Origin: a virus
DNA: 43,374 nt
Direction: 5' to 3' (one strand)
IMG/VR virus record: IMGVR_UViG_3300027741_001771
Span: 1-43,374 of that record
Shown: positions 4,274-43,162 of the stretch, piece after piece
Position numbering within the stretch: the stretch's first letter is position 1
Layout: each line of letters starts with the position of its first letter
The notes under the pieces: generated by a model
The model's database searches: none
What the model saw: only the letters and a program-made list of their open reading frames with translations
What the model was told of the DNA's origin: nothing
Translations under genes and position numbers: made by a program

Positions 4274-5347
4274 ATGCCATTAGTATTAAGAGGTAAGAAC
4301 GGAGGTGAAGTAGTCCTCGACACCACCACCCCTACACCGACAACACAATCCTTGTATGTTGATGGCGGCTTAACCTCAAATGGTACAATTACAGCTACAT
4401 CATTTGCAGGTAACGGTGCGCTATTAGCGGTTAATGGTATGCCTAAGGTAAACACATTTACTTCACCTGGCACCTTTACAGTACCAGCTACAACGACAAG
4501 AATAAAGGTAACAGCTGTCGCCGGAGCCCCGGGCGCATCTGGTGCAGCAGGTAATAATATATTAGTTAATGAAACAAGTACACCTGCTCCTGTAGCGGCA
4601 ATATTAGGATATAGAGCCGGTAGTTATGGCGGCTACGGTGGTTCCGGCGGTACTACAAGTTTTGGTTCTTACGTAACTGTTTCACCTTCCGGCACTTCTA
4701 CTAGTAACACGACTGCAAACTTAGCACTTAATATTAGCGCGGCTGCTGTAACAGGTTGCAGTCTTTATGGTACATCTCAAACAGTATTAAATCCATCGCC
4801 CTGCCTTAGTGGTGTAGCACTTGCGTCAATTGTATACATGCAAGGTCCGTTCCCCCCTACAATTCCTGTCACAATAGGTGCAGGTGGTGGTGGGGGTGGC
4901 GGTGGTGCTGGTGCCGGGGCCTCCACTCCAGGTAGTATATTTGATATACATGCACCTGGTACAACATATGCTAACGGATCTCCTGGTTCACTAACTACTG
5001 GGGGTGCTGGTGCTTCGTCTCCTAACGTAGGGCCTTTAGCTACTATTGGGGCAGGAGGTGCCGGTGGTGGTGGCGCCGGTGCATCCGGGTGGTCGACCGG
5101 TACTGGCGGTGCCGCAGGTACGAAAGGCACCACTACATGGAACCCTACAGTACCGGTTCCAACACGCAGTGCAGGCTCACCTGCAGGTTCAGCAGGGCCT
5201 GCAGGTTCTTCGGCAGCATTAGTAACCGGCGGCGCCGGTGGATCTGCAGATTCTGTACCCGCCACGTATAGTCCAGGGAGTTATCGGAACGGTGGTAAGG
5301 GGGGTGGAAGTGGATTCAGTGGAATTATGATTGTGGAGTATGATTAA
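4274..5347 (+). CDS. Glycine-rich tail fibre adhesin, copy 1
   Basis: A 357-residue protein and the first of three tandem paralogues. An N-terminal MPLVLRGKNGGEVVLD segment leads to a VFTSPGTFTVP-type beta element near residue 60. Glycine-rich blocks follow, including a run of eight or more glycines after the shared GPFPPTIPVTIGAG motif. The C-terminus GGSGFSGIMIVEY is shared with the other two copies. Stacked polyglycine-II helices are known in phage adhesins such as the S16 gp38 tip, so a receptor-binding tip is the best inference. The start has only a weak ribosome-binding site. The stop TAA abuts the next ATG directly. Confidence 0.8.
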   Translation: MPLVLRGKNGGEVVLDTTTPTPTTQSLYVDGGLTSNGTITATSFAGNGALLAVNGMPKVNTFTSPGTFTVPATTTRIKVTAVAGAPGASGAAGNNILVNETSTPAPVAAILGYRAGSYGGYGGSGGTTSFGSYVTVSPSGTSTSNTTANLALNISAAAVTGCSLYGTSQTVLNPSPCLSGVALASIVYMQGPFPPTIPVTIGAGGGGGGGGAGAGASTPGSIFDIHAPGTTYANGSPGSLTTGGAGASSPNVGPLATIGAGGAGGGGAGASGWSTGTGGAAGTKGTTTWNPTVPVPTRSAGSPAGSAGPAGSSAALVTGGAGGSADSVPATYSPGSYRNGGKGGGSGFSGIMIVEYD

Positions 5348-6868
5348 ATGACAATTATATTAAAAGGTAGTACATCAGGCTCTGCAAATTTAGATGCTTC
5401 TAATACTGGTGGTAGTCTATCTGTAGCAAACTTAACCATATCTGGGACAGTTACTGCAACTACCCTTACGGGTAACGGTCAAGGCATAACTGGAGTTACT
5501 TCACTACCAGCAATTAACGTATTTACTTCTCCTGGCACGTTTACTGTTCCGTCTTCTACTACAAAAATAAAGGTGACAGCTGTCGGCGGCGGCCCTGGTG
5601 GAGCCGGGGCAGACGGCTCCGGCCTTTTTGCCGGATCCACGTGTGTTAGTGTAAGTGGAGGATCTGGAGGTAGCGGAGGCTCCGGTGGTGTCACTTCTTT
5701 TGGTAGCTATGTTACAGTAGGTGCCGGGTCTTCCTCTTTGTCATACTCGCAGCTGTGTCCAACAAGAGGTTATAGTAATTCAGTCGTTGGTTGTGCTTAT
5801 GGGGTACCAGGTGGTGGTAGTATTAGTGATGCAAGTGGCCGGTGTATTTTTGCTACTGCTAATCACCCGGACAGTCCTGGGGTTATTACTACACCTTCAA
5901 GCTCAACTCCTTCTTTCCCAGGGTGGCTAATTTCGAATTATAATGGGTATATTAAAAATAGTAATTATTTTTTGAACACCTATGGGGTTGTATTATATTA
6001 TAACTACCCTCGCGTATCGTCGCCTACCACTACATTTCAACGTGACGCTACTTATAGTGTAACATTCCCGTATTCAGGTTACTATGATTTTAGACTAGGC
6101 GCCTCCGGTCATTATTTTCTCTACGTGGATGGCGTTATGGTTAGTTCAGTGGGTGAATCGTCTAACAGCAGTTATACCAACGGTGAGCAACGAATAATAT
6201 ATGTAAGCGCAGGTACTAGAAGTGTTAGAATACAATTTTTCGTCCAGCATCAGTATTCTTACGGAGATGGATGGCCAGTATACGCATTAACTATTAATAC
6301 ACTCAATGAATATAAGAGTCAACGCGCATACACAGTATACCTACAAGGCCCTTTCCCACCAACAATTCCTATTACTGTAGGTGCCGGTGGCGGCGGAGGT
6401 GGTGGCGGCGCCGGCATGACGTTGAACCCTGCGTTATGTGGTGTATCAGGTCCTTTGCCAAATTACAATGGCACAGCAGGTAACCTTACACAAGCCGGAA
6501 ATGGAGGTAGTTCAAATCCAGGAGCTATTGCAGGAGGTGCTGGGGGAGGAGGTGGTGGTGCATCCGGACACACAATTACATCTGGTGGTAGCGCAGGTAG
6601 TAAAGGTACTTCCTCATGGCCAGGTGCTCCATTAGCAGCCCCTGTAAGAAAAACCGGAACAATTTCAGCTGCTGCGGGTAGTACTGGAACGTCAAATACA
6701 ATAAGCAGAGGGGGTTCTGGTGGTCAAGGAGACTGGGCGTGGTCAAACACTACATGTCCAGTAGGGACTGGTACGAACCCTTTAGGAGTGAGCTATAACG
6801 GGGGCCCAGCATCTGGTGGTGTAGGCGGTGCTGGTGGTTTCTCTGGTGTAGTTATTATTGAATATTAA
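5348..6868 (+). CDS. Glycine-rich tail fibre adhesin, copy 2, with inserted beta-rich domain
   Basis: A 506-residue paralogue of the proteins before and after it. It shares the INVFTSPGTFTVP element (about residue 56), GPFPPTIPITVGAG plus polyglycine (about 334-355), and the C-terminal GFSGVVIIEY. It is about 150 residues longer because residues 178-325 form an insert of different composition. The insert is rich in Tyr, Phe and Val and low in Gly, with alternating hydrophobic strands such as YSVTFPYSGYYDFRL and HYFLYVDGVMVSS. It resembles PA14- or carbohydrate-binding-type beta-sandwiches, and it probably adds a sugar-binding head. That fold call is inference. Confidence 0.8.
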   Translation: MTIILKGSTSGSANLDASNTGGSLSVANLTISGTVTATTLTGNGQGITGVTSLPAINVFTSPGTFTVPSSTTKIKVTAVGGGPGGAGADGSGLFAGSTCVSVSGGSGGSGGSGGVTSFGSYVTVGAGSSSLSYSQLCPTRGYSNSVVGCAYGVPGGGSISDASGRCIFATANHPDSPGVITTPSSSTPSFPGWLISNYNGYIKNSNYFLNTYGVVLYYNYPRVSSPTTTFQRDATYSVTFPYSGYYDFRLGASGHYFLYVDGVMVSSVGESSNSSYTNGEQRIIYVSAGTRSVRIQFFVQHQYSYGDGWPVYALTINTLNEYKSQRAYTVYLQGPFPPTIPITVGAGGGGGGGGAGMTLNPALCGVSGPLPNYNGTAGNLTQAGNGGSSNPGAIAGGAGGGGGGASGHTITSGGSAGSKGTSSWPGAPLAAPVRKTGTISAAAGSTGTSNTISRGGSGGQGDWAWSNTTCPVGTGTNPLGVSYNGGPASGGVGGAGGFSGVVIIEY

Positions 6869-6879
6869 TAGGAAATAAA

Positions 6880-7872
6880 ATGCCGATCTTACTCCCGGGC
6901 ACAAATACCCCTGTAACTATAGACACCACATCCACTGCCGATGCAGTAACCATATCGTCTAATGTAGTAGTAACCAAAACAATCACAGGATCATTTGTTG
7001 GAAATGGTGCTAGTCTTACTTCAGTATCATCGGGCTTTCCCAAGGTAAACGTCTTTTCAGCGCCCGCAACATTTAGCGTACCAACCACCACAACCAGAAT
7101 TAAGATAACAGTTGTTGCGGGTGCCCCTGGAGCAAGTGGTTGTAGTGGTAGCTACTCACCAGGAGGGTCTGGTGGCACCGGGGGTACAACTTCTGTAGGT
7201 TCATATATTACTCAGTCTACCTGTGGTACAACTGCCACTTGCCCGACTGCTACATCACTATTAGCAAAAAATCTTCCAAAACCTCGAGGTCTAGGAAGAT
7301 GTACACCTTATTCTAACTCAGGTATAAACGCTGCTAACCCGACAGGTTTAAGTAAAGTATCTGTGGCATATATTAACGGTCCATTTCCTCCAACAATTCC
7401 TATTACTGTTGGTGCCGGAGGAGGAGGTGGTGGTGGCGGTAGTGGTGCCGGTGGTCCCGGCAGCGGCCCTCCCGCTACTCTGTACAATGGAGGTCCTGGC
7501 TCTCCATCAACTGCGTGTGCAGGAGCTGGAGGTGGCGGTGCAGGAGCTTCGGGTGGTACGATAGGTACCGGCGGCACAGGTGGTATTTCATCCACAACAC
7601 CTGCGTTTAACGGCAATCCTGGATCGGCTGGTAGCCCAAGCGCATTAGTTTATGGTGGGTCCGGATCTTATGGTAATTATGTACCGAACTCGGTTTTTCA
7701 CCCTGCAACATGCACCCCTAACCCTCCAACTCCCGGACCGTGCTGTTCTTGCACCCCTAACCCTCCTACTTATACCCCTTGCTATTATTCGTGCTGCGGG
7801 GGTCCAGCTGGTAACGGAGGTCAAGGTGGTAGTAGTGGATTTTCAGGCGTAGTTATTGTAGAATACCATTAA
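6880..7872 (+). CDS. Glycine-rich tail fibre adhesin, copy 3, with Cys/Pro-rich loop
   Basis: A 330-residue third paralogue with the VNVFSAPATFSVP element, GPFPPTIPITVGAG plus polyglycine and the C-terminal SGFSGVVIVEYH. It differs by a short Cys/Pro-rich segment around residues 278-307 with two copies of CTPNPPT and vicinal cysteines. The ribosome-binding site is AGGAAATAAA before the ATG at 6880. It is probably an alternative or additional receptor-binding tip. The cysteines are unusual for a cytoplasmically assembled phage protein and may bind metal or form disulfides after release. Confidence 0.8.
   Translation: MPILLPGTNTPVTIDTTSTADAVTISSNVVVTKTITGSFVGNGASLTSVSSGFPKVNVFSAPATFSVPTTTTRIKITVVAGAPGASGCSGSYSPGGSGGTGGTTSVGSYITQSTCGTTATCPTATSLLAKNLPKPRGLGRCTPYSNSGINAANPTGLSKVSVAYINGPFPPTIPITVGAGGGGGGGGSGAGGPGSGPPATLYNGGPGSPSTACAGAGGGGAGASGGTIGTGGTGGISSTTPAFNGNPGSAGSPSALVYGGSGSYGNYVPNSVFHPATCTPNPPTPGPCCSCTPNPPTYTPCYYSCCGGPAGNGGQGGSSGFSGVVIVEYH
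7711..7766 (+). repeat. 17-bp direct repeat encoding CTPNP
   Basis: TGCACCCCTAACCCTCC occurs at 7711-7727 and again at 7750-7766, in the same frame 39 bases apart, within the Cys/Pro-rich loop of the third glycine-rich fibre. Identity at the DNA level, including third positions, suggests a recent duplication. Confidence 0.8.
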
Positions 7873-7890
7873 GAGTATAAAGAGGAAAAA

Positions 7891-8214
7891 ATGAAGGTAC
7901 TAATTAACCCATTAGTTAAAGTAACAGATAATAATGGAAATATTTTAGGTTCTAGAGTAGAATATTATTATGATGAGGTTTTTGAAGTTGCACCTCCTTT
8001 CTTTTTTGTAAATAATGCTGATATTACTTTAGAGTCTGGTGACCCGCAATTCTTTTATTATAAAGATGATACAGGAGAAATTATTAAATATATAAGACCA
8101 GTCCCTGAACCACGTCCAGCAGCAGAACCGACAAAGACATTAGAACAAATCATAGCTGACATGGTAGCAGCTAAACTTGCTGAAATGGCAGCTGCTAATA
8201 CAGGTACATCTTAA
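7891..8214 (+). CDS. Small acidic protein of the fibre region, unknown function
   Basis: A 107-residue protein with a good ribosome-binding site (AGAGGAAAAA). The N-terminal 70 residues are predicted beta-rich (MKVLINPLVKVTDNNGNILG, then VEYYYDEVFEV). A Pro-rich linker (PVPEPRPAAEP) follows, then a C-terminal amphipathic helix (LEQIIADMVAAKLAEMAAA). A position directly after three adhesins suggests a fibre-associated or assembly protein. I do not recognise the family. Composition shifts from the Gly/Ser/Thr pattern of the fibres to an ordinary soluble protein. Confidence 0.6.
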   Translation: MKVLINPLVKVTDNNGNILGSRVEYYYDEVFEVAPPFFFVNNADITLESGDPQFFYYKDDTGEIIKYIRPVPEPRPAAEPTKTLEQIIADMVAAKLAEMAAANTGTS

Positions 8215-8237
8215 ATTATTTAAATTTTAATTAAATT

Positions 8238-8831
8238 ATGAATCACGTTGAAGTATTTAAAGCGAGAGGTGCTTTGCACCTCAAAGGTCTTGTATCCCGG
8301 GATACATGCAAATTTATTACACACCTTATGATGCTTAAGCATGCATGCTATAGTACTGGTGGTGATTCTCAAGTTCCAAATTCTATTGGTGTAAGTCACG
8401 GGGAATTGTCGAATGAGGTGCTCTTAGAAACACTATGGCCAACTATAGAAGAAGCCGTAGGTGAAGAGCTCATTCCTACTTATTCGTATTCAAGAGTGTA
8501 CGGTAACGGTGATGATCTTAAAAAGCACACAGATAGACCAGCCTGTGAGGTTAGCTGCACTATCCAATTAGGCAGGTCCCATCATTATGCATGGCCTATT
8601 TACATGGGCGGTTATAGATTTGACTTGGCTGAAGGTGATGGGGTTATTTACAGCGGATGTGATGTAATGCACTGGAGAGAGGTCTGCAATGGACCTGAAG
8701 GATATTATTCCGGACAAGTATTCTTACACTATGTGAGAGCAAACGGACCTCATAAAGAACATGCAGGCGATAGGAGATGGGAAAATCTTCCGTTCAGGCG
8801 GCATAGGACTAGATTAATGGAGAATAAGTAG
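8238..8831 (+). CDS. 2OG-Fe(II) oxygenase-like protein (prolyl hydroxylase type)
   Basis: A 197-residue protein with the double-stranded beta-helix iron site of 2-oxoglutarate dioxygenases. H97-T-D99 (KKHTDRP) gives the HxD pair, and H145 (VMHWRE) is a good candidate for the distal histidine. The preceding YSRVYGNGDDL strand is typical of prolyl 4-hydroxylase-like phage proteins. The 2-oxoglutarate-binding basic residue after the distal histidine is not obvious. The substrate is unknown; phage members may hydroxylate protein or another phage or host target. It sits at the head of a small auxiliary cluster between the fibre regions, after a short AT-rich leader (8215-8237). Confidence 0.7.
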   Translation: MNHVEVFKARGALHLKGLVSRDTCKFITHLMMLKHACYSTGGDSQVPNSIGVSHGELSNEVLLETLWPTIEEAVGEELIPTYSYSRVYGNGDDLKKHTDRPACEVSCTIQLGRSHHYAWPIYMGGYRFDLAEGDGVIYSGCDVMHWREVCNGPEGYYSGQVFLHYVRANGPHKEHAGDRRWENLPFRRHRTRLMENK

Positions 8832-8832
8832 A

Positions 8833-9186
8833 ATGGATAAGATTTTCATGAAGGTAGTAAAGTTTGATGAGGTCGCAGGAACTCTTCATGTTAAGTTTGC
8901 ATCAGAAAAGAATATTCGACCGATAGATGAGTATGATGAACATAAATTCCTTGTTATGAACTTTAATGAGAATTTTGATTCTAATCTTGTAATATGGGAG
9001 CTTGGTAAGGTAGGTTATCGTATCGCTCAGACACAAGAGCAAGCTGAAGAAAATGTTAGAAATAGCACGAAGCTTCAAGAATATAAAAACTTGGTAGGTA
9101 ATGAATATGAGTTTGACTCACACGAATTATTTGCATGTAAAGCAGCGGAAAATCAACCGCCCACAGAAGGTCTAATGGAGATTTAA
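8833..9186 (+). CDS. Conserved-looking small protein, unknown function
   Basis: A 117-residue acidic protein starting one base after the oxygenase stop, with GGAG 11 bases upstream inside that gene. It looks like a compact alpha/beta domain (KVVKFDEVAGTLHVKFA, then a helix TQEQAEENVRNSTKLQEYKN). No catalytic motif is visible. Immediate coupling to the oxygenase suggests a shared role, perhaps as partner or substrate. I do not recognise the family. Confidence 0.55.
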   Translation: MDKIFMKVVKFDEVAGTLHVKFASEKNIRPIDEYDEHKFLVMNFNENFDSNLVIWELGKVGYRIAQTQEQAEENVRNSTKLQEYKNLVGNEYEFDSHELFACKAAENQPPTEGLMEI

Positions 9187-9513
9187 ATGTCAGATCCCTT
9201 TTCGTCTAAAATTGTAGCAGTCCTACCCAAACACACGTTTGTATATGACGGTACGAGAGTAAATATTTTTCATGCAGATGCTGGTCAAGGCCTTCCTAGA
9301 CATGACCACGCTTACTCTCACGCAACTGTTGTTTATAATGGTAAGGTAAAGTGTACGAAAGAAAACTTTGAACTTATTATGGATAAGAACACAACACCTA
9401 TTGTATTAAAGGGCGGGGAGTGGCATGAACTTGAAGCAATGGAAGACGGGACAGTCTTCAGTAATATTTTTGCTGAAGAGTTCATGAAAACTGATACTTA
9501 CAACAAGGCATAA
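9187..9513 (+). CDS. Cupin-fold protein
   Basis: A 108-residue single-domain protein with a classical cupin metal site. H39, H41 and H45 occur in PRHDHAYSHATVVYNG, and H80 occurs in GGEWHELEAMEDGTV. The spacing between the two motifs fits a small mononuclear cupin. The start has GGAG seven bases upstream, and the stop overlaps the next ATG. Cupins of this size can be isomerases, dioxygenases or sugar/ligand binders, so the reaction cannot be stated. Its position between two iron oxygenases suggests a metal-dependent auxiliary step. Confidence 0.65.
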   Translation: MSDPFSSKIVAVLPKHTFVYDGTRVNIFHADAGQGLPRHDHAYSHATVVYNGKVKCTKENFELIMDKNTTPIVLKGGEWHELEAMEDGTVFSNIFAEEFMKTDTYNKA

Positions 9514-9965
9514 TGAGCAGAGTACCGTACAGACATAGAATCTTAATAATGGGATTACCGGGCTCAGGTAAATCTGAGCTAGCTGTAGAATTAAGAAAGT
9601 TATTAGAAACTACAGATAAAGTAATAGAAAGATTAGACGGAGAAGCGGCGTCTATTGCTTTTGATGATTATGATTTTTCTGAAAACGGATTCATAAATCA
9701 GGCATTAAGACTATCAACGGGTGCGCATCATAGTTTCTCCGATTTGATTATTGTAGACTTCATTGCACCTACTCTTGCATCTCAGCTTATATTTTACCCA
9801 AAACTTTTAATTTGGATGGATACTATTCAAAGTAGTAAGCATCCAGACACCGATGCGCTATTTACTCCTCCTATAAACTATCAATTTAGAGTAACTGATA
9901 GAGATTATAAAAAGTGGGCTGAAATTATTTTTGATTATATCCAAGGAACTTTTTTTAATGAATGA
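9513..9965 (+). CDS. P-loop kinase-like protein (APS-kinase-like)
   Basis: A 150-residue P-loop NTPase with Walker A GLPGSGKS at residues 14-21. A candidate second acidic motif occurs in SDLIIVDFIAP, and LIWMDTIQSSKHPDTD resembles the lid/substrate region of adenylylsulfate-kinase-like proteins. Similar small kinases occur in the fibre regions of marine T4-like phages. The substrate is unknown; sulfate activation is not supported by any neighbour. The gene overlaps the cupin by one base and the following oxygenase by eight. Confidence 0.6.
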   Translation: MSRVPYRHRILIMGLPGSGKSELAVELRKLLETTDKVIERLDGEAASIAFDDYDFSENGFINQALRLSTGAHHSFSDLIIVDFIAPTLASQLIFYPKLLIWMDTIQSSKHPDTDALFTPPINYQFRVTDRDYKKWAEIIFDYIQGTFFNE

Positions 9966-10569
9966 TAGACTTATTTTTCCTCTTTCACCGTTTAGCCCTC
10001 CCGGTCTAGATAGCTTTTGCTATTGGGAGGGATTTCTTTCAGATGACGATATAAATTTTATTCTTGCAAGACCTGAATGGCTCGATAATGATGCTGCTAA
10101 AGTAGGAGGCGGAGGTGATGGCAAGGTAGTACCAGAAGTACGCAGAACTGATGTTGCCTGGCTACCCTATAATAAAGAAACACATCACATTTATGAAAAA
10201 ATTACTACTGCTATTTGGAATGCAAACAGACAATATTTTCAATTTGATTTAACAGGTTGCTATGAACAGGCGCAATTAGGGCTGTATACCGAAGGAGATC
10301 AGGGACATTACGATTGGCATACTGATGCTCATATAACAACAAAAAATGTACCTAGAAAGCTTTCGTTTGCACTCATGCTTAGCGACACGTCTGAATTTGA
10401 AGGAGGAGAATTACTCCTTAAAGTTAATAATGATAAAGAAGTAGAAGTAGAACAAAAGCGCGGACGTGCTTGGATTTTTCCATCTTGGACTCTACACAAG
10501 GTTGCACCTGTCACCAAAGGTATTAGACGCTCATTAGTTCTATGGATAGGCGGACCTGCCTTTAAGTAA
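9958..10569 (+). CDS. PKHD-type 2OG-Fe(II) oxygenase
   Basis: A 203-residue dioxygenase with H121-T-D123 (YDWHTDAH), a distal H180 (WTLHKVAPV) and the 2-oxoglutarate-binding R190 (KGIRRSLVLWI). This is the complete PKHD/prolyl-hydroxylase signature. The start chosen is ATG 9958 (MNDRLIFPL), which overlaps the upstream stop and has AAGGAA eight bases before it; an in-frame ATG at 9931 lacks support. PKHD hydroxylases are common in marine T4-like phages with unknown targets. The gene ends at the terminator/late-promoter element near 10590. Confidence 0.8.
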   Translation: MNDRLIFPLSPFSPPGLDSFCYWEGFLSDDDINFILARPEWLDNDAAKVGGGGDGKVVPEVRRTDVAWLPYNKETHHIYEKITTAIWNANRQYFQFDLTGCYEQAQLGLYTEGDQGHYDWHTDAHITTKNVPRKLSFALMLSDTSEFEGGELLLKVNNDKEVEVEQKRGRAWIFPSWTLHKVAPVTKGIRRSLVLWIGGPAFK

Positions 10570-10589
10570 AAACTAGTTATTTCAGGTAT

Positions 10590-10597
10590 TATAAATA
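10590..10597 (+). promoter_or_regulatory. T4-type late promoter upstream of the 10626 gene
   Basis: A perfect TATAAATA box. T4 late promoters carry this box at about -13 to -6, which puts the start near 10603, inside the 5' arm of the overlapping hairpin. It would drive the fibre genes from 10626. Confidence 0.75.
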
Positions 10598-10625
10598 GAG
10601 GAGATAAACAATCTCCTCTATTTTT
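10593..10625 (+). terminator. 13-bp hairpin with T-tract, overlapping a late promoter
   Basis: A perfect 13-bp stem (10593-10605 with 10611-10623, core ATAGAGGAGAT) has a 5-base AAACA loop and ends in TTTTT at 10621-10625, directly before the ATG at 10626. It looks like a factor-independent terminator for transcripts from the oxygenase cluster. Because the late promoter would start within the 5' arm, its own transcript cannot form the hairpin. Confidence 0.7.
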
Positions 10626-10952
10626 ATGGCTACTAAAGCAAACTTACTTATTGACCAAGGCTCAGACTTCAGTACAACAGTCAACATTACTGATAATGAC
10701 GGTAATGGAATTGACCTGACTGGATATACTGGTGCAGCGCAGATGCGTAAACATTACACATCTTCAAATGCCGTAACTTTTAGTGTTTCAATTAATCCTG
10801 GCTTAGGTGCAGTAACACTCTCGCTTACCAATACCCAGACAGCTAATATTGTTGCTGGTAGATATGTTTATGATTGTGAATTAACAACAGGAAATACTGT
10901 TTCAAGAGTACTAGAAGGTATTGTTACTGTTACACCACAAGTTACGAGATAA
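10626..10952 (+). CDS. BppU-like baseplate/fibre-associated structural protein
   Basis: A 108-residue beta-rich protein. The opening KANLLIDQGSDFSTTVNITDN and a following strand pattern resemble the Ig-like N-terminal domain of BppU-type baseplate or fibre-attachment proteins (IDQGSDF, GYTGAAQMRK, ILEGIV-like end). It probably attaches fibres or starts fibre assembly. The start has no usable ribosome-binding site close by, and the GGAG at 10600-10603 lies inside the hairpin stem. Function is inferred from domain resemblance and from position ahead of two long fibres. Confidence 0.65.
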   Translation: MATKANLLIDQGSDFSTTVNITDNDGNGIDLTGYTGAAQMRKHYTSSNAVTFSVSINPGLGAVTLSLTNTQTANIVAGRYVYDCELTTGNTVSRVLEGIVTVTPQVTR

Positions 10953-35191: not shown

Positions 35192-36903
35192 TTCTATTTA
35201 AGAAGATACGATTTAAGAATATACTCTCAACCGGTAATACGTTTACAGAAATAGACTTTTTACGTAATCGTTCTACCCTTATTGTTGGAGAAAATGGTGC
35301 AGGGAAGTCTACTATTCTTGATGCTCTTTGCTTTGCTCTATACGGCAAACCTTTCAGAAAGATTAATAAGCCACAGCTACTCAACACCATTAATCAAAAA
35401 AATCTCGAAGTTCAAATAGAGTTTGATATTGGTAAGCATCAGTACAAAGTTATTCGCGGCATGAAGCCGAATATCTTTGAGATCTATCAGAACGGCGAGA
35501 TTATTAATCAGAATGCTGAATCACGTGAATATCAAGAGATGTTTGAGCGTAATATTCTCAAACTTAACTTCAAGTCGTTTTCTCAGATTGTTATTCTAGG
35601 CTCAGCTTCGTTTGTTCCGTTCATGCAGCTTCCTGCTGCTCACCGTAGAGAGGTTATCGAAGACCTACTTGATATTCAGATCTTCTCTACGATGAATTCT
35701 ATTCTCAAAGATAGAATCAATACAAACAAGACAGATATCCAAGAGAACGATTTTAATATTAAGAGTCTGGCTGAAAAGATCGAGCTGCATAAGAAGTATC
35801 TTGAATCGTTGCAACAAAATAACGATGAACTGATTATTGAGAAGCTTAAGGCAATTGAAGAGCATAATAATCAAATTGCTATCGAGCAGCAGCTGATTGA
35901 TGAATGTACTACTGCTATCAATAGCCTTAAATTAGAAACAGATCAGATAGAAGATCTACGCAAGGAAGATAGAGACATTCGTGAACTCTATCGTAAGATG
36001 TATGACAAGTCAGTAAAGCTTATTAAAGAGAATAAATTTTACGACGATAATGATAACTGTCCTATCTGTAAGCAAGGTATCTCGCATGACTTCAAGCATG
36101 AGTCGCAAGAAAAGAATCAGACAGATATTGATACTATCAGCTCCGGTCTTAATAAGCTAGACAGAAAGCTTTTAAAGATTAACGAAAAGATTAATGCATT
36201 TACTAAGTCGTTAGAAGTACAAGAAGCTCATCAAAAGAAGGTAGGTGAGTACAATAATAAGATTACTACCCTTAATATGTTTATTTCTTCTCTAACTCAA
36301 GAGATCGAACAGATTAAGAGTAATACCAAGCATATTGATGCTAGCGCAGAAGAAATTAAGGTACTAAAAGAAAGCCTTAGACAGAAGATACAACTCAAGG
36401 AAGAGCTTGTTGAGAGCAGAAGAACACTAGACGTTGCTAGCGTCCTTCTAAAAGACTCAGGCATTAAGACTAGAATTATTAAGCAGTACGTACCTGTTAT
36501 GAATAAACTGATTAACAAGTATCTTGCATCGATGGACTTTTTCGTTAACTTTGAGCTTAACGAGAACTTTGAAGAAACTATTAAATCGAGGTTTAGAGAT
36601 GAATTTTCTTATGAGTCGTTTAGCGAAGGCGAAAAGATGCGTATTGACTTGGCTCTTCTGTTTACCTGGAGAGCTGTTGCCAAGCTTCGCAATTCTGCTA
36701 GCACTAATCTCCTTATTATGGACGAAGTATTCGATAGCAGTCTAGACGGTGCGGGTACAGATGAGTTCTTAAAGATTATTCAAGGACTAGCAAGCGATAC
36801 TAATATCTTTATTATTAGTCACAAGGGTGATGCGCTGTATGATAAGTTCCACAGTGTCATTCGTTTCGAGAAGCATAAAAACTTTAGTAGGTTAGCAGCA
36901 TGA
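35188..36903 (+). CDS. gp46: Recombination nuclease subunit gp46 (Rad50/SbcC-like)
   Basis: A 571-residue SMC-like ATPase. It has Walker A GENGAGKS near 34, a long coiled coil broken by a CPIC zinc hook near 293, the signature SEGEKMRIDLAL near 478 and Walker B LLIMDEVFDSSLD near 510. It partners gp47. The start is GTG 35188 with GGAG upstream, overlapping the gp47 stop. The stop overlaps the deformylase ATG. Confidence 0.94.
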   Translation: MILFKKIRFKNILSTGNTFTEIDFLRNRSTLIVGENGAGKSTILDALCFALYGKPFRKINKPQLLNTINQKNLEVQIEFDIGKHQYKVIRGMKPNIFEIYQNGEIINQNAESREYQEMFERNILKLNFKSFSQIVILGSASFVPFMQLPAAHRREVIEDLLDIQIFSTMNSILKDRINTNKTDIQENDFNIKSLAEKIELHKKYLESLQQNNDELIIEKLKAIEEHNNQIAIEQQLIDECTTAINSLKLETDQIEDLRKEDRDIRELYRKMYDKSVKLIKENKFYDDNDNCPICKQGISHDFKHESQEKNQTDIDTISSGLNKLDRKLLKINEKINAFTKSLEVQEAHQKKVGEYNNKITTLNMFISSLTQEIEQIKSNTKHIDASAEEIKVLKESLRQKIQLKEELVESRRTLDVASVLLKDSGIKTRIIKQYVPVMNKLINKYLASMDFFVNFELNENFEETIKSRFRDEFSYESFSEGEKMRIDLALLFTWRAVAKLRNSASTNLLIMDEVFDSSLDGAGTDEFLKIIQGLASDTNIFIISHKGDALYDKFHSVIRFEKHKNFSRLAA

Positions 36904-37424
36904 TATATGAATTAGTCAAAGGTGATAATCCTATTCTCTATACTAAAGTAGAGCCGTTTAACTTTAGTAATCCAGGTATTAACCCAATCGAGCTTACCAA
37001 CAACCTTATAGAGACTATGTACCATCATAAAGGTATGGGATTGTCTGCAAATCAGGTAGGTCTTCCTTACAGAGTGTTTGTTTTACACTCACAGGAAACA
37101 TTAGCTATGTTTAATCCTAAGATTATTGATCAGACGTCTGATGAGGTTAAGCTAGAAGAAGGATGTTTATCTTTTCCAAATCTCTGGCTTCCAATTAAGA
37201 GACCATCTATAATCAAAGTTCGTTATCAAGACGCTTTTGGTGGTTTTAGAACAGATAAGTTCATTGGTATGACCGCTAGATGTATAATGCATGAGCTTGA
37301 TCATCTTAATGGTATTGATTACCGTAAGAGAGCTCATCCTATGCATCTTTCTCGGGCCGAGAATCAAAAGAAGGTTATTGATAGGAAAATTAAGAAGCTA
37401 AAACAGATCGGCCGGGCTATATAA
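36900..37424 (+). CDS. def: Peptide deformylase
   Basis: A 174-residue iron/zinc deformylase removing the N-formyl group from new proteins. All three family motifs are present: GMGLSANQVG (45-54), EGCLSFP (87-93, metal ligand C89) and HELDH (131-135). Phage deformylases occur in marine T4-like phages and may sustain processing of phage or host photosystem-type proteins. The ATG overlaps the gp46 stop. Confidence 0.95.
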   Translation: MIYELVKGDNPILYTKVEPFNFSNPGINPIELTNNLIETMYHHKGMGLSANQVGLPYRVFVLHSQETLAMFNPKIIDQTSDEVKLEEGCLSFPNLWLPIKRPSIIKVRYQDAFGGFRTDKFIGMTARCIMHELDHLNGIDYRKRAHPMHLSRAENQKKVIDRKIKKLKQIGRAI

Positions 37425-37459: not shown

Positions 37460-38317
37460 ATGTCAAAAATTAAAGTCGCAGAGCTCTTTTATAGCCTGCA
37501 AGGAGAAGGACGCTTCGTTGGCGTACCTTCTATCTTTTTAAGAACTTTCGGTTGTAACTTCCAATGTGCCGGATTTGGCATGCCACCAGGACAGCTGAGT
37601 GATGAGAGAGATAATGTTGCTAGCCAAATTTCTAATTACAAACTCTATGAAGAGCTTCCTCTTGTTCATACTGGATGTGATTCTTATGCTAGTTGGGATC
37701 CTCGTTTTAAGCATCTTAGTCCTGTTCGATCTACTGACGAAATTGCTGAAAAGATCTTTGAACTTCTTCCAGAAAAGAAGTGGAAGAAAGAGCATCTAGT
37801 TATCACGGGCGGGGAACCTCTTCTCGGATGGCAGCGTAGTTTTCCAGATCTTATTAAACGCGCTGACTTTATCTACGATCTAGAAAACCTTACATTTGAA
37901 ACAAACGGCACTCAGCCTCTAACAGAAGAATTTAAATACTTTTTGTTTGAAGAGTTTACTAGGTTCGGCCGTAGTTTTGATCGACTCACATTCTCAGTAT
38001 CAGCTAAACTCCCATGCTCAGGTGAGAAGTGGGAAGATGCTATTAAGCCAGAAATCGTTCACGACTATCAAGGCATTGGTCATACCTATCTTAAGTTCGT
38101 AGTTGCGACAGAAGAAGACGTCGAGGATGCTAAGAAGGCTGTTAAGGAATTTAAGGACGGTGGCTTTGTTGGTGACGTATATTTGATGCCGGTTGGTGGT
38201 ACTGAAGACGTTTATTATCTTAATAATAAGCAAGTCGCTGAACATGCCATGAAATTAGGGTGGAGATATTCTCCACGTTTACAAGTTGACATTTGGAGAA
38301 ACGCATGGGGGACCTAA
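37460..38317 (+). CDS. queE: 7-carboxy-7-deazaguanine synthase QueE, split cysteine motif
   Basis: A 285-residue radical-SAM enzyme converting 6-carboxytetrahydropterin to CDG, the third step from GTP to preQ0. The opening VAELFYSLQGEGRFVGVPSIFLRTFGC and the SAM-binding VITGGEPLLGW (about 114-124) are diagnostic. The CxxxCxxC cluster motif is interrupted. C32 and C36 are present, but the third cysteine is C73 in GCDSYASWD, which matches the CDTxYxW element, after 36 residues rather than two. It opens the deazaguanine cluster, with AGGAG upstream. Confidence 0.92.
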   Translation: MSKIKVAELFYSLQGEGRFVGVPSIFLRTFGCNFQCAGFGMPPGQLSDERDNVASQISNYKLYEELPLVHTGCDSYASWDPRFKHLSPVRSTDEIAEKIFELLPEKKWKKEHLVITGGEPLLGWQRSFPDLIKRADFIYDLENLTFETNGTQPLTEEFKYFLFEEFTRFGRSFDRLTFSVSAKLPCSGEKWEDAIKPEIVHDYQGIGHTYLKFVVATEEDVEDAKKAVKEFKDGGFVGDVYLMPVGGTEDVYYLNNKQVAEHAMKLGWRYSPRLQVDIWRNAWGT

Positions 38318-38739
38318 ACACCTATGATTTTACTTACACTATGTTTAATGAAGCTATCGATGACATAGCTCGTCAAGTAAATAACAAAAAAATCAAATAC
38401 AACTATATTGTAGGTCTTACGAGAGGTGGATTGATTCCTGCCACAGTCTTAAGTCATAGACTTAAGGTTCCTATGCTAGCAAGTAACTGGGATACAGATA
38501 GAAAGAAGCCTTCATTAACTTTGATGGATATTTTAGATAATCCAAGAAACAAAGTATTACTAGTAGATGAAATTTTAGATACTGGTAAGACAATACAGTC
38601 CTTTATGGAAATACATGGCAAGACTGATGTGGCAGTGATTGTATGGAATAAAGAACAGCCGGTCATACCTAATTATCATCATATGGCAATGAGACGTTCA
38701 GAGTTTTCTGATTGGATTGAATTTTGGTGGGAGAAATAA
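38305..38739 (+). CDS. Phosphoribosyltransferase-family protein
   Basis: A 144-residue type I PRTase fold protein. The PRPP-binding loop is VLLVDEILDTGKTIQSF (about 85-101), with an upstream GLTRGGLIPATVLSHRL (about 37-53) typical of purine/xanthine phosphoribosyltransferases. It lies between queE and queD, so it may act on a deazapurine or purine base. The start is ATG 38305, with GGAG six bases before it, overlapping the queE end. An in-frame TTG at 38293 is rejected. The exact substrate is not visible. Confidence 0.75.
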   Translation: MGDLNTYDFTYTMFNEAIDDIARQVNNKKIKYNYIVGLTRGGLIPATVLSHRLKVPMLASNWDTDRKKPSLTLMDILDNPRNKVLLVDEILDTGKTIQSFMEIHGKTDVAVIVWNKEQPVIPNYHHMAMRRSEFSDWIEFWWEK

Positions 38740-38741
38740 GA

Positions 38742-39209
38742 ATGGGTAAGTTTTATAGTACAAAGACATATGGTAATGATCGGGGTCTAAGCTGCTGCTT
38801 TAGACAATGGAAAAGTACTCATAGTCATTGCAGCTTGTTGCATGGTTATTCTATTGGTGTGCATGTTACCTTCGAATGCGATAGCTTAGACGAACGCAAC
38901 TGGGTTATGGATTTCGGTGGTTTGAAAGAGTTTAAAGAATGGCTTGAGTATATGTTTGATCATACTTTGATTTTAGCAGAGGATGATCCTGAGCTTAATA
39001 CTTTGAAGCAATTGCACGGTATGGGCGTTGCAGATGTTAGAGTAGTTACCGGTGTAGGTTGTGAACGCTTTGCTGAGCTGGCCTACAATCAACTTGCACT
39101 AATGCTAGATGATTGGAGAGAGAATGGTACTCTATTGAATCCTACTGTTCGAGTAAAGTCAGTAGAAGTATTTGAGCATGCAGGTAACTCAGCATTTTAT
39201 GAAGGTTAA
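38742..39209 (+). CDS. queD: QueD/6-pyruvoyl-tetrahydropterin synthase-like, altered zinc site
   Basis: A 155-residue protein of the QueD family, second step toward preQ0 (7,8-dihydroneopterin triphosphate to 6-carboxytetrahydropterin). C30 (SHCSLLHGY) is the candidate catalytic cysteine. D73-H74 and E145 sit where the family's other active-site residues lie. Of the usual zinc triad only H34 is clear: W23 stands where the first ligand is expected and Y36 replaces the second His of HGH. H27 and H29 could substitute. ATG 38742 has GGAG eight bases upstream. Confidence 0.82.
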   Translation: MGKFYSTKTYGNDRGLSCCFRQWKSTHSHCSLLHGYSIGVHVTFECDSLDERNWVMDFGGLKEFKEWLEYMFDHTLILAEDDPELNTLKQLHGMGVADVRVVTGVGCERFAELAYNQLALMLDDWRENGTLLNPTVRVKSVEVFEHAGNSAFYEG

Positions 39210-39211
39210 TA

Positions 39212-39892
39212 ATGAAATATACTGAACTATTGCGTAACAAACTCATTAACAACAAATTAAGGTACTGGGCCGGTGATAATATTTCCTCAATTCTCAATGA
39301 TGCAGACCGTCAGGTTATTGTTGAAGAAGCTACAAAGGCGTTTGAAGGAGTACTGGATGCTCTGCTCATTGACCGGGAAAATGACCCCAATTCAAAGGGA
39401 ACGGCAAAAAGACTAGCCAAGATGTACGTGCATGAAATTATGGCAGGTAGATATTATCCTGCTCCTGATGCGACTGCGTTCCCTAACACAGGTGAAAGTG
39501 CTTATAGGGGTATGCTAGTAGTTCGTTCTGAACTTAAGTCGATGTGCTCACACCATCACCAACCTGTAACCGGTGTTGGTTATATCGGCATTATTCCTAG
39601 CGAGAAGGTTATTGGTCTATCCAAGTATACTCGAATTGCACAATGGTGCGCACGTCGAGGAACTCTTCAAGAAGAACTATGCAATGATATTGCACGTGAG
39701 ATTAGAAAAGCAACTGAGAGCGAAAGCGTTGCTGTCTACTTGAAGCTTAAGCATGGTTGTTGCCAGAACCGAGGCATTGGTGCTCACGATAGCACTACTC
39801 AGACGACTGTACTCTATGGCGAGTTTAATAACGCTGATGTAAAGAAAGAGTTCTTCGATAATATTCAAATTCAAGAACTAACAACCCGTTGA
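39212..39892 (+). CDS. folE: GTP cyclohydrolase I FolE
   Basis: A 226-residue type IA enzyme making 7,8-dihydroneopterin triphosphate, the first step for both folate and 7-deazaguanine. Zinc residues are C112 and H115 (SMCSHHHQP) and C183 (HGCCQNRG). H181-x-C183 and R187-G188 fit the C-terminal motif. IPSEKVIGLSKYTRIAQW matches the family core. It follows queD by two bases, so GTP would feed QueD and then QueE, encoded in the same run. Confidence 0.92.
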   Translation: MKYTELLRNKLINNKLRYWAGDNISSILNDADRQVIVEEATKAFEGVLDALLIDRENDPNSKGTAKRLAKMYVHEIMAGRYYPAPDATAFPNTGESAYRGMLVVRSELKSMCSHHHQPVTGVGYIGIIPSEKVIGLSKYTRIAQWCARRGTLQEELCNDIAREIRKATESESVAVYLKLKHGCCQNRGIGAHDSTTQTTVLYGEFNNADVKKEFFDNIQIQELTTR

Positions 39893-39945: not shown

Positions 39946-40377
39946 ATGTGGTATAAAAACTCTGAAGGTCGATTTGGTGAATCTGGTCGTAAAGGTGATA
40001 GCGGAGAAGGAGTGGTCGAGCGCTATCTGATTGAGAAGAATATTAACTATGAAAAGAAAGACGATCCGCACAGTCAAGTTAAGCTAAAGATAGATTTTAC
40101 CGTTGAAGGTGATCCTATTGACGTAAAAGCTAACATCTTTAAAGGATTCCTAGGTGTAGAACTTTTTAACGATAAAGCTGAGAAAGGTTGGATTTATACT
40201 ACTACAGCTAAAGAGATTTACGGCGTTGATCTGGTCTATGAAAACATCTATCGATACAAAGTTGCAGACATGCTTAAGCATGTAGAGAAAAATAAGCATA
40301 GAGCTAAACCAGTTAAAAATGGAGCGTATATGCTCTGGGTGTCGAAGACCGAACCATTTATTGAGAAACTACAATGA
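39946..40377 (+). CDS. PD-(D/E)XK nuclease-like protein
   Basis: A 143-residue protein. An N-terminal helix GEGVVERYLIEKNINYEKK is followed by LKIDFTVEG and PIDVKANI, so E25, D50 and D59-x-K61 give the E, D, (D/E)xK layout of restriction-endonuclease-fold enzymes and resolvases. It stands between folE and the TGT-like gene. A nuclease blocked by base modification or one acting in recombination are both possible. No family match is certain. Confidence 0.6.
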   Translation: MWYKNSEGRFGESGRKGDSGEGVVERYLIEKNINYEKKDDPHSQVKLKIDFTVEGDPIDVKANIFKGFLGVELFNDKAEKGWIYTTTAKEIYGVDLVYENIYRYKVADMLKHVEKNKHRAKPVKNGAYMLWVSKTEPFIEKLQ

Positions 40378-41162
40378 AGATTGCACATGAAGCTCCTTTG
40401 AGCATTTTTAATAGAGTACAAGAAGTAACCGATTATGACTATGCTCTTGTGCATTTATTTGAAGAAAGTGAAAAGTACTATAGTTTGTTTGAAAGAGCAC
40501 TACAGAAGAAGCGAGAAGTAATTCTAGATAATTCTGTATTTGAGCTCGGTACTGCTTTTGATAAAGACAAGTACTACGGCTGGATTGAGAAGCTGGATCC
40601 TACTTACTATATTATTCCGGATGTTCTAGAAGACGCACAACAAACGGTTAAGAATATTAAAGAATGGCAGCATATTCCAGGCAAGAAGTCTATTGGCGTA
40701 GTTCAAGGTAAGAGCGTTCAAGAAGTCGTCTGGTGTTATCAAGAAATTGAACCGCTAGTAGATAAGGTAGCTATCTCGTTCGACTATTCGTTCTTTATTA
40801 ACGAAGAGATTAATGGAGTTCTACCTACCAAGTATCATCACTATATGTACGGGCGAGATGCTTTGATTAATTACATGCTTAATATTGCAAATGTAATTAA
40901 TATCAATAAACCTCATCATCTACTCGGCTGCGGGCTACCTCAAGAGTTTGATGTCTATAGAGGCTATAAGTGGATTGATTCTATGGATACCTCTAATCCT
41001 GTAGTTGCAGGTCTTAAGGGTATCCGGTATAATGGTAAGCTAGGGCTAGAAGATAAGCCTACCGAAAAGCTTTATACTCTCATTAACTCAGATGTTAATG
41101 ATGAGCAAATGAGTAAGATTCTTTATAATATTGAATGTTTCAGGTCAATAGTTAATGGTTAA
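40374..41162 (+). CDS. TGT/DpdA-like base-exchange enzyme (candidate DNA 7-deazaguanine transglycosylase)
   Basis: A 262-residue protein with the motif order of tRNA-guanine transglycosylase-fold enzymes. D52 occurs in ILDNSVFELG (like DSGGFQ), D83 in IIPDVLED, Q111-G in IGVVQG and HLLGCGLPQEF at 182-192. D202 and D205 occur in WIDSMDTSNP, where TGT has its nucleophilic Asp. The CxCxxC zinc site of tRNA TGTs is absent and the protein is short, as in phage DpdA-type proteins. Inserting the cluster's base into phage DNA is the likely role. It overlaps the preceding stop and the next start. Confidence 0.7.
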   Translation: MKIAHEAPLSIFNRVQEVTDYDYALVHLFEESEKYYSLFERALQKKREVILDNSVFELGTAFDKDKYYGWIEKLDPTYYIIPDVLEDAQQTVKNIKEWQHIPGKKSIGVVQGKSVQEVVWCYQEIEPLVDKVAISFDYSFFINEEINGVLPTKYHHYMYGRDALINYMLNIANVININKPHHLLGCGLPQEFDVYRGYKWIDSMDTSNPVVAGLKGIRYNGKLGLEDKPTEKLYTLINSDVNDEQMSKILYNIECFRSIVNG

Positions 41163-41700
41163 AGATAAGCGATGGGTTGCTTTGTTTTCTCAGACTGGCT
41201 CTGAGATTTCTGCTATTTCTTCAAAGCTTGGTATTAAGCCGGATCTAGTATATACTAATAATCTAGAGCACGCGACGTGGCATCCTTTTATTAATACATG
41301 CAATGTTATTTCTAATACTCATACTAACATTATGCAATTAATTAGGGATGATAATACGGATGCATTTTATACTCTCCACGGGTATCTTAGAATTATCGAT
41401 GGAGAGATTGTAAGTTCGCGTGATATGTATAACGGTCATCCAGGATTGATTACAAAGTATCCTGAGCTCAAGGGTAAAGATCCTCAAGAGATAGTAGCAA
41501 AGAATCTTTCTCTTTACGATAGAATTGGAAGTGTTATTCATAAGGTTACTCCTGAAGTTGATGCAGGAGAGATACTTTATGAGTTTGCCGTGTTTAATAG
41601 TTGTAATTCACGCGAAGAAGTGTATGATGCTTTGAAGCTTACATCCCTTCATTCATGGCTTACATTTTTTAAGGAAAAATTTGAATGCGAATTGGCTTAA
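41155..41700 (+). CDS. Formyltransferase-fold protein
   Basis: A 181-residue member of the GART/methionyl-tRNA formyltransferase superfamily. The active-site triad is visible as N93, H95 (YNGHPGLITKYPEL) and D136 (HKVTPEVDAGEILYE), the N, H, D layout of 10-formyl-THF-dependent transferases. The N-terminal VALFSQTGSEISAISSKL is the usual first strand-helix. It overlaps the TGT-like gene by eight bases and is followed by a kinase and queF. It lacks a tRNA-binding C-terminal domain. The acceptor is unknown and could be a purine nucleotide or the preQ1 amine. Confidence 0.75.
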   Translation: MVKDKRWVALFSQTGSEISAISSKLGIKPDLVYTNNLEHATWHPFINTCNVISNTHTNIMQLIRDDNTDAFYTLHGYLRIIDGEIVSSRDMYNGHPGLITKYPELKGKDPQEIVAKNLSLYDRIGSVIHKVTPEVDAGEILYEFAVFNSCNSREEVYDALKLTSLHSWLTFFKEKFECELA

Positions 41701-42236
41701 GCGGTGCGCAGTCTACAGGTAAAACGACTCTATTGAATGCTCTGAGGTCAGAGCCGTTCTTTAAGACGTATGATATTTGTAATGAAGTAACTAGGAAAGT
41801 TGCTTCGTATGGTCTTCCTATTAACGAAGACGGCAATGATACTACTCAAGAGTTGATTATGAATCAGCATATCGTTAATCTTGCTATGCATAGCGATATG
41901 ATTACAGATAGAACAGTACTTGATGGTTTTGTTTATTCGAGGTATTTGCGTGAGAATGGCAAGATTACAGCTGCTACTATGAATTATGTTGAAAAGGTTT
42001 TTGATCGAATGATCGGCAGCTATGATATGATTTATTATATTGCGCCTGAGTTTGAGATTAAAAATGATGGTGTACGCTCTATTAATACTTTCTTTAGAGA
42101 CCGTATCGTTAATATCTTTAACGAAGTTATAGGGGTTAAGAATATTCCGATTTATCGAGTAAAGGGTACAGTACGAGAGCGTGTACAATTTGTTCTTAAT
42201 ACGATAGAAATTAATATGGAAATTACAGACAAATGA
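41685..42236 (+). CDS. NadR/AAA-like P-loop kinase
   Basis: A 183-residue P-loop protein with Walker A GAQSTGKTT (7-15) and DRTVLDGFVYSRYL near 78-91, a pattern shared with NadR-type kinases and phage nucleotide kinases. A basic patch lies in SINTFFRDRIV. It overlaps the formyltransferase by 16 bases and queF by four. Phosphorylation of a nucleoside or nucleotide is plausible; the substrate is not visible. Confidence 0.65.
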   Translation: MRIGLSGAQSTGKTTLLNALRSEPFFKTYDICNEVTRKVASYGLPINEDGNDTTQELIMNQHIVNLAMHSDMITDRTVLDGFVYSRYLRENGKITAATMNYVEKVFDRMIGSYDMIYYIAPEFEIKNDGVRSINTFFRDRIVNIFNEVIGVKNIPIYRVKGTVRERVQFVLNTIEINMEITDK

Positions 42237-43162
42237 GTGATAATCAAAAGACATTAAACGAATTAGTATCCGTTCACCTAGGTAAGGCAGGTGACGGTAC
42301 AGTAGTTAAACCTTATGTGACTCCTGATAGTGTTGATGAGTCTCTACTGGTGGCTGTTCCTAGGCAGCTTAATCGTACTGCATATGAACTTCAGGATGAC
42401 AATTTGCCTTTCACTGGGTATGATGCATGGAATGCTTATGAATTTTCAACGTTGCTTAAGAACGGTTTCCCTATCTCTGGCTGGCTAAAGTTTGTCTGTC
42501 CTAGCGATAGCCCTAACATTGTAGAATCCAAGTCAGTAAAGCTATATCTTAACTCTTACAATATGGCCAAGCTAATGGATACCCCTGAGGATCTATGGAT
42601 GATTGAAGATCAGATCTCTTCTCATCTGAGCAAGGCTGTAGGTGCAGATGTATTCGTTCAAATTGCAATTGGTCATGTTGATGAGTCAGCACCTATCAGA
42701 GGTGACTTTACTTCGCTGGAATCATATTGTAATGTACTTGAACTATCTTTTGACGAGTATACTGAAAGGTCCGATATCCTTCAGGTTGTTCCTAGCATTG
42801 GTCGCTATGAGCGTTGGCGTTCACATTCGCTACGTTCTAATTGCAGAGTAACTAACCAACCTGATTGGGGCGACGTATACGTTCATATTAAAGGTAAGAA
42901 CGCTGTAACACCTGAATCTCTTCTGCAGTATATTGTAAGCATGCGTAAAGAGAATCACTTCCACGAAGAGATTTGTGAATGCATTTATAAGCGCTTGTAT
43001 GACATTCTTCAGCCAGAGGAACTTCTAGTTGCTTGTTTGTATACTCGTCGCGGCGGTATTGACATTAATCCTGTTCGTGCGTCTGATTCTGAAGTATTGT
43101 TTAAGTACGCAAACTCCTTGGTGTCTGAGTTTAACTTCTGCAAAAAGACGATGAGGCAATAA
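42233..43162 (+). CDS. queF: NADPH-dependent 7-cyano-7-deazaguanine reductase QueF
   Basis: A 309-residue bimodular (E. coli-type) QueF reducing preQ0 to preQ1. ESKSVKLYLNSYN (98-110) is the QueF substrate/NADPH motif. C204 (LRSNCRVTNQPDWG) is the thioimide-forming cysteine, D211 the proton donor, and H244-E245 (NHFHEEICE) complete the site. The C-terminal CLYTRRGGIDINPVR matches E. coli. It is the last preQ1 step of this cluster. QueC, needed to make its substrate, is not in the window. Confidence 0.93.
   Translation: MSDNQKTLNELVSVHLGKAGDGTVVKPYVTPDSVDESLLVAVPRQLNRTAYELQDDNLPFTGYDAWNAYEFSTLLKNGFPISGWLKFVCPSDSPNIVESKSVKLYLNSYNMAKLMDTPEDLWMIEDQISSHLSKAVGADVFVQIAIGHVDESAPIRGDFTSLESYCNVLELSFDEYTERSDILQVVPSIGRYERWRSHSLRSNCRVTNQPDWGDVYVHIKGKNAVTPESLLQYIVSMRKENHFHEEICECIYKRLYDILQPEELLVACLYTRRGGIDINPVRASDSEVLFKYANSLVSEFNFCKKTMRQ

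Follow-up and report, generated by a model that had tools for sequence, protein, structure and literature searches.

A formylated derivative of preQ1, 2'-deoxy-7-(formylamino)methyl-7-deazaguanine (fdPreQ1), was reportedly described in phage DNA by Cui and co-workers in 2023, who are also said to have predicted a dPreQ1 formyltransferase, DpdN, and to have described the DpdA3 subfamily. Among the new enzymes of that study, only the methyltransferase DpdM reportedly underwent an experimental test, and phages of the immuto type were probably among those analysed. Two other phage systems are of interest for comparison: dPreQ1 occurs in phage Dp-1, which has a QueF homologue, and Campylobacter phages of the CP220 group carry dADG (Hutinet et al. 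2019, PMC6884629). Finally, gene 66 of Flavobacterium phage vB_FspM_immuto_3-5A (QQO91984.1) encodes the nearest isolate relative of the formyltransferase (FT) considered here and is annotated, with a purine-synthesis label, as a phosphoribosylglycinamide formyltransferase.

The stretch of DNA analysed (the window) comprises 43,374 nucleotides of the IMG/VR record IMGVR_UViG_3300027741_001771 and comes from a T4-like phage with gp20 portal, gp23 capsid, T4-type terminase and gp46/47 genes. Its 7-deazaguanine genes follow one another on the plus strand in the order QueE (a radical SAM protein of the 7-carboxy-7-deazaguanine synthase type, 37460..38317), a phosphoribosyltransferase-family gene (38293..38739), QueD (6-carboxytetrahydropterin synthase-like, 38724..39209), FolE (GTP cyclohydrolase I-like, 39212..39892), a 143-aa protein without a family match (39946..40377), a TGT-like gene (40374..41162), FT (41155..41700), a P-loop kinase (AAA_28/deoxynucleoside-kinase-like, 41685..42236) and QueF, the preQ0 nitrile reductase making preQ1 (42233..43162). 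Family matches were obtained for QueE, QueD, FolE, the kinase and QueF, and the placement of FT within a deazaguanine run, as given in the initial annotation, was confirmed. The same order DpdA-FT-kinase-QueF is found in phage immuto, where a small extra ORF lies between DpdA and FT; the immuto FT is 43-44% identical to that of the window and keeps the catalytic triad.

Aligned over its full length, the TGT-like protein shares 52% identity with the annotated 'DNA guanine transglycosylase, DpdA' of phage immuto and belongs to one family with it and with CP220 gp056. It is predicted to be a DpdA-type DNA guanine transglycosylase, which we take to be a member of the DpdA3 subfamily. QueF scores 233 bits against TIGR03138, under the cut-off of 293, and contains both ESKSVK and SNC...QPDW. 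The motif ESKS.K binds NADPH and SNC...QPDW forms the catalytic region, and together they mark the QueF nitrile reductase as opposed to the QueF-L amidinotransferase; ESK is kept in all 141 relatives. QueC is absent from the window. It was found in 11 of 11 related records and begins a few hundred bases after QueF in close relatives; in this phage the corresponding position is immediately beyond the end of the window, where QueC is probably located. A peptide deformylase gene upstream (36900-37424) was considered as a formyl-removing partner and rejected, being outside the cluster in immuto and in many other loci.

The FT reading frame starts with ATG and encodes 181 aa with zero internal stops. 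It shares eight bases with the DpdA-type gene (41155-41162, stop included), exactly the overlap noticed at first, and its 3' end overlaps the next ORF (from 41685) by 16 bases. Taken alone, the window protein scores 22.4 bits against Pfam Formyl_trans_N, under the cut-off of 26.1, and all 44 family members scanned match this family (best E 7.6e-12). An AlphaFold2 model based on an alignment of 44 sequences reached a pLDDT of 95.4 and a pTM of 0.90, and its best matches in the PDB are all GAR transformylases (E about 1e-11, TMq about 0.75). The window FT is an intact GART-fold formyltransferase, in agreement with the initial annotation.

The residues N93, H95 and D136 of FT correspond in the alignment to N106, H108 and D144 in PurN of E. 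coli and are identical in 145 of 145 aligned family members, an invariance that is not due to chance; the early remark that this triad is intact can thus be extended to the whole alignment. G15, E17, G107, Q111 and H129 are also invariant in these 145 sequences. In E. coli PurN, GAR is contacted by Asn13, which touches its phosphate, and by Glu173. Neither contact is preserved in the FT family: the position of Asn13 is occupied by Glu17 in all 145 members and that of Glu173 by Leu in 35 of 44 sequences. A carboxylate at Glu17 would be better suited to a neutral or cationic, guanine-like acceptor than to a phosphate. The signature consisting of Glu17 and Asn93/His95/Asp136, with GHPG...YPELKGKDPQ, can be used to tell FT enzymes apart from the PurN label of databases.

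Relatives of FT are numerous in IMG/VR, where a profile scan gave 566 of them and a scan with a divergent query 549; among 84,980 species genomes only one was found, on a MAG contig carrying the same cluster. The family is almost entirely confined to viruses. Gene neighbourhoods were counted for 148 distinct FT proteins taken from the best-scoring loci (the best 80 per scan). The co-occurrence of the formyltransferase with DpdA-like genes, suggested initially as a check, was very regular: DpdA is present in 135 of the 137 loci whose upstream sequence is long enough to tell, and QueF in all 129 loci for which the same holds downstream. Since loci fetched with FT contain it by design, the count was repeated on loci fetched with DpdA alone (again the best 80 per scan); FT and QueF occurred together in 55 of these, both were missing from 2, and one without the other was never met. 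One possible exception, L165, has an FT-kinase fusion and no QueF found on its 73-kb fragment. Among uncultivated T4-like phages, genes for the predicted formylation of preQ1 are widespread, occurring on hundreds of contigs, and they are strictly tied to the production of preQ1.

The loci with DpdA only are instructive. Campylobacter phage CP220 has a DpdA of the same family (41% identical to that of the window), a kinase directly after it, and QueC, but neither QueF nor FT was found anywhere in its 177-kb genome. QueF and FT are likewise both absent, with DpdA present, from L220 (a 154-kb record) and L226. Three records, L220, L226 and L154, gave weak matches to QueF, which were attributed to the homologous FolE or to chance. 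Therefore, FT accompanies QueF, which generates the free amine, and not DpdA as such; this fits preQ1 as the acceptor, although short of proof. The L226 cluster (4724-10692) consists of QueE-PRT-QueD-FolE-DpdA with QueC and without QueF, kinase and FT; it probably serves a preQ0/ADG-type modification, and a gene resembling, by eye, a dCTP deaminase follows it.

In our opinion, it is highly probable that FT is a DpdN-type, 10-formyl-THF-dependent N-formyltransferase of the preQ1 pathway in a T4-like phage, where the gene, its fold, its residues and its coupling are observed and the reaction is predicted from them. FolE, QueD, QueE and QueC would convert GTP to preQ0, QueF would convert preQ0 to preQ1, and DpdA would exchange guanine in phage DNA for the deazaguanine. 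Using N93, H95 and D136, FT would take the formyl group from 10-formyl-THF and attach it to the nitrogen of the free aminomethyl group of preQ1, either before or after the insertion by DpdA, so that the free base or DNA-bound dPreQ1 may serve as the acceptor. The resulting base in DNA would be 2'-deoxy-7-(formylamino)methyl-7-deazaguanine (dPreQ1 + 28 Da). The isoelectric point (5.6 for the window FT, family median 6.1) was considered as a guide to the choice between DNA and free base and is not decisive. The benefit for the phage is likely resistance to restriction enzymes, by analogy with other phage 7-deazaguanines (PMC6884629).

The window FT shows what is expected of DpdN, namely a formyltransferase fold with the Asn-His-Asp triad and a place in a phage 7-deazaguanine cluster that also encodes DpdA and QueF. 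Published DpdN reportedly has the predicted reaction, the QueF and DpdA setting and the phage origin in common with the window FT; the phage lineages differ, and the two are likened by predicted role and gene setting. Thus, the proposal that FT formylates preQ1 for DNA is well supported as regards the acceptor, for which preQ1 or dPreQ1 is likely in view of the linkage to DpdA and QueF, while the accompanying statement that formylated preQ1 in DNA is undescribed is not supported, because fdPreQ1 and a predicted DpdN have reportedly been published. The chemistry is sensible yet reportedly already described, and the window FT is most likely a further DpdN-type example. Its predicted activity is directly testable in phage immuto, which has been isolated.

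A simple formylation scheme does not account for the kinase gene next to FT, nor for the fusion at L165:7995-9080, where FT and the P-loop kinase form one 362-aa ORF with both domains recognized by Pfam. These features leave some room for two related ideas. According to one of them, formylation is a single step, and FT and the kinase, with a preQ1 nucleotide or DNA as their substrate, build a larger guanine modification that goes beyond fdPreQ1, with Glu17 recognizing guanine in place of the phosphate site of PurN; we consider this very unlikely. According to the other, the formyl amide is only an intermediate, or a phosphorylated precursor is the acceptor, and the joint action of the two enzymes gives preQ1 a different or larger group. 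The usual adjacency of FT and kinase and their union in L165 speak for this, but about one FT locus in three has no kinase between FT and QueF, and an AAA_28/'thymidylate kinase' gene follows DpdA even without FT or QueF (L092 12819-13361; L220 8858-9397). Therefore, neither of the two genes depends on the other, and we regard this second idea as decidedly unlikely; the distribution suggests that the kinase serves the DpdA pathway itself.

Formylation of preQ1 should also be weighed against a phage PurN, which would formylate glycinamide ribonucleotide and boost the purine synthesis of the host during infection. This plainer role, mentioned already in the initial annotation, agrees with the fact that PurN/GART, with its common fold and Asn-His-Asp triad, is the nearest named family of FT by sequence and structure, with the PHROG match of FT to a cyanobacterial-phage PurN family, and with the database name 'phosphoribosylglycinamide formyltransferase' of its relatives. 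Nevertheless, FT obtains only 24.8 bits against the NCBIfam PurN equivalog TIGR00639, far under the cut-off of 150.1, and the GAR-contact residues are replaced. An association with purine genes, named at the outset as grounds for giving up the preQ1 proposal, was not seen: AIRS-domain (PurM/PurL) genes, the only family searched for, are absent from 11 phage records, the majority of them 145-197 kb long, and a strict linkage to DpdA and QueF was found instead. On score, pocket residues, missing AIRS-domain genes and gene context the PurN role was rejected as very improbable, and the same evidence argues against the purine-synthesis label of the immuto protein. Another amine acceptor, such as Met-tRNA or an amino sugar nucleotide, or a 10-formyl-THF hydrolase activity, suggested by weak matches of FT to fmt, ArnA, PurU and sugar formyltransferases, is scarcely credible in view of the 181-aa length without an extra C-terminal or ACT domain and of the consistent que/dpd context.

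Several smaller features of these clusters deserve mention. One FT (L137:8001-8858) is extended at its C-terminus by about 110 aa, and this part matches phrog_1485. The 143-aa protein recurs as the immediate upstream neighbour of DpdA in about one half of the loci. The phosphoribosyltransferase gene is met again within the que run of several lineages (in L002, for example, at 8887-9282) and has a possible role in base salvage.
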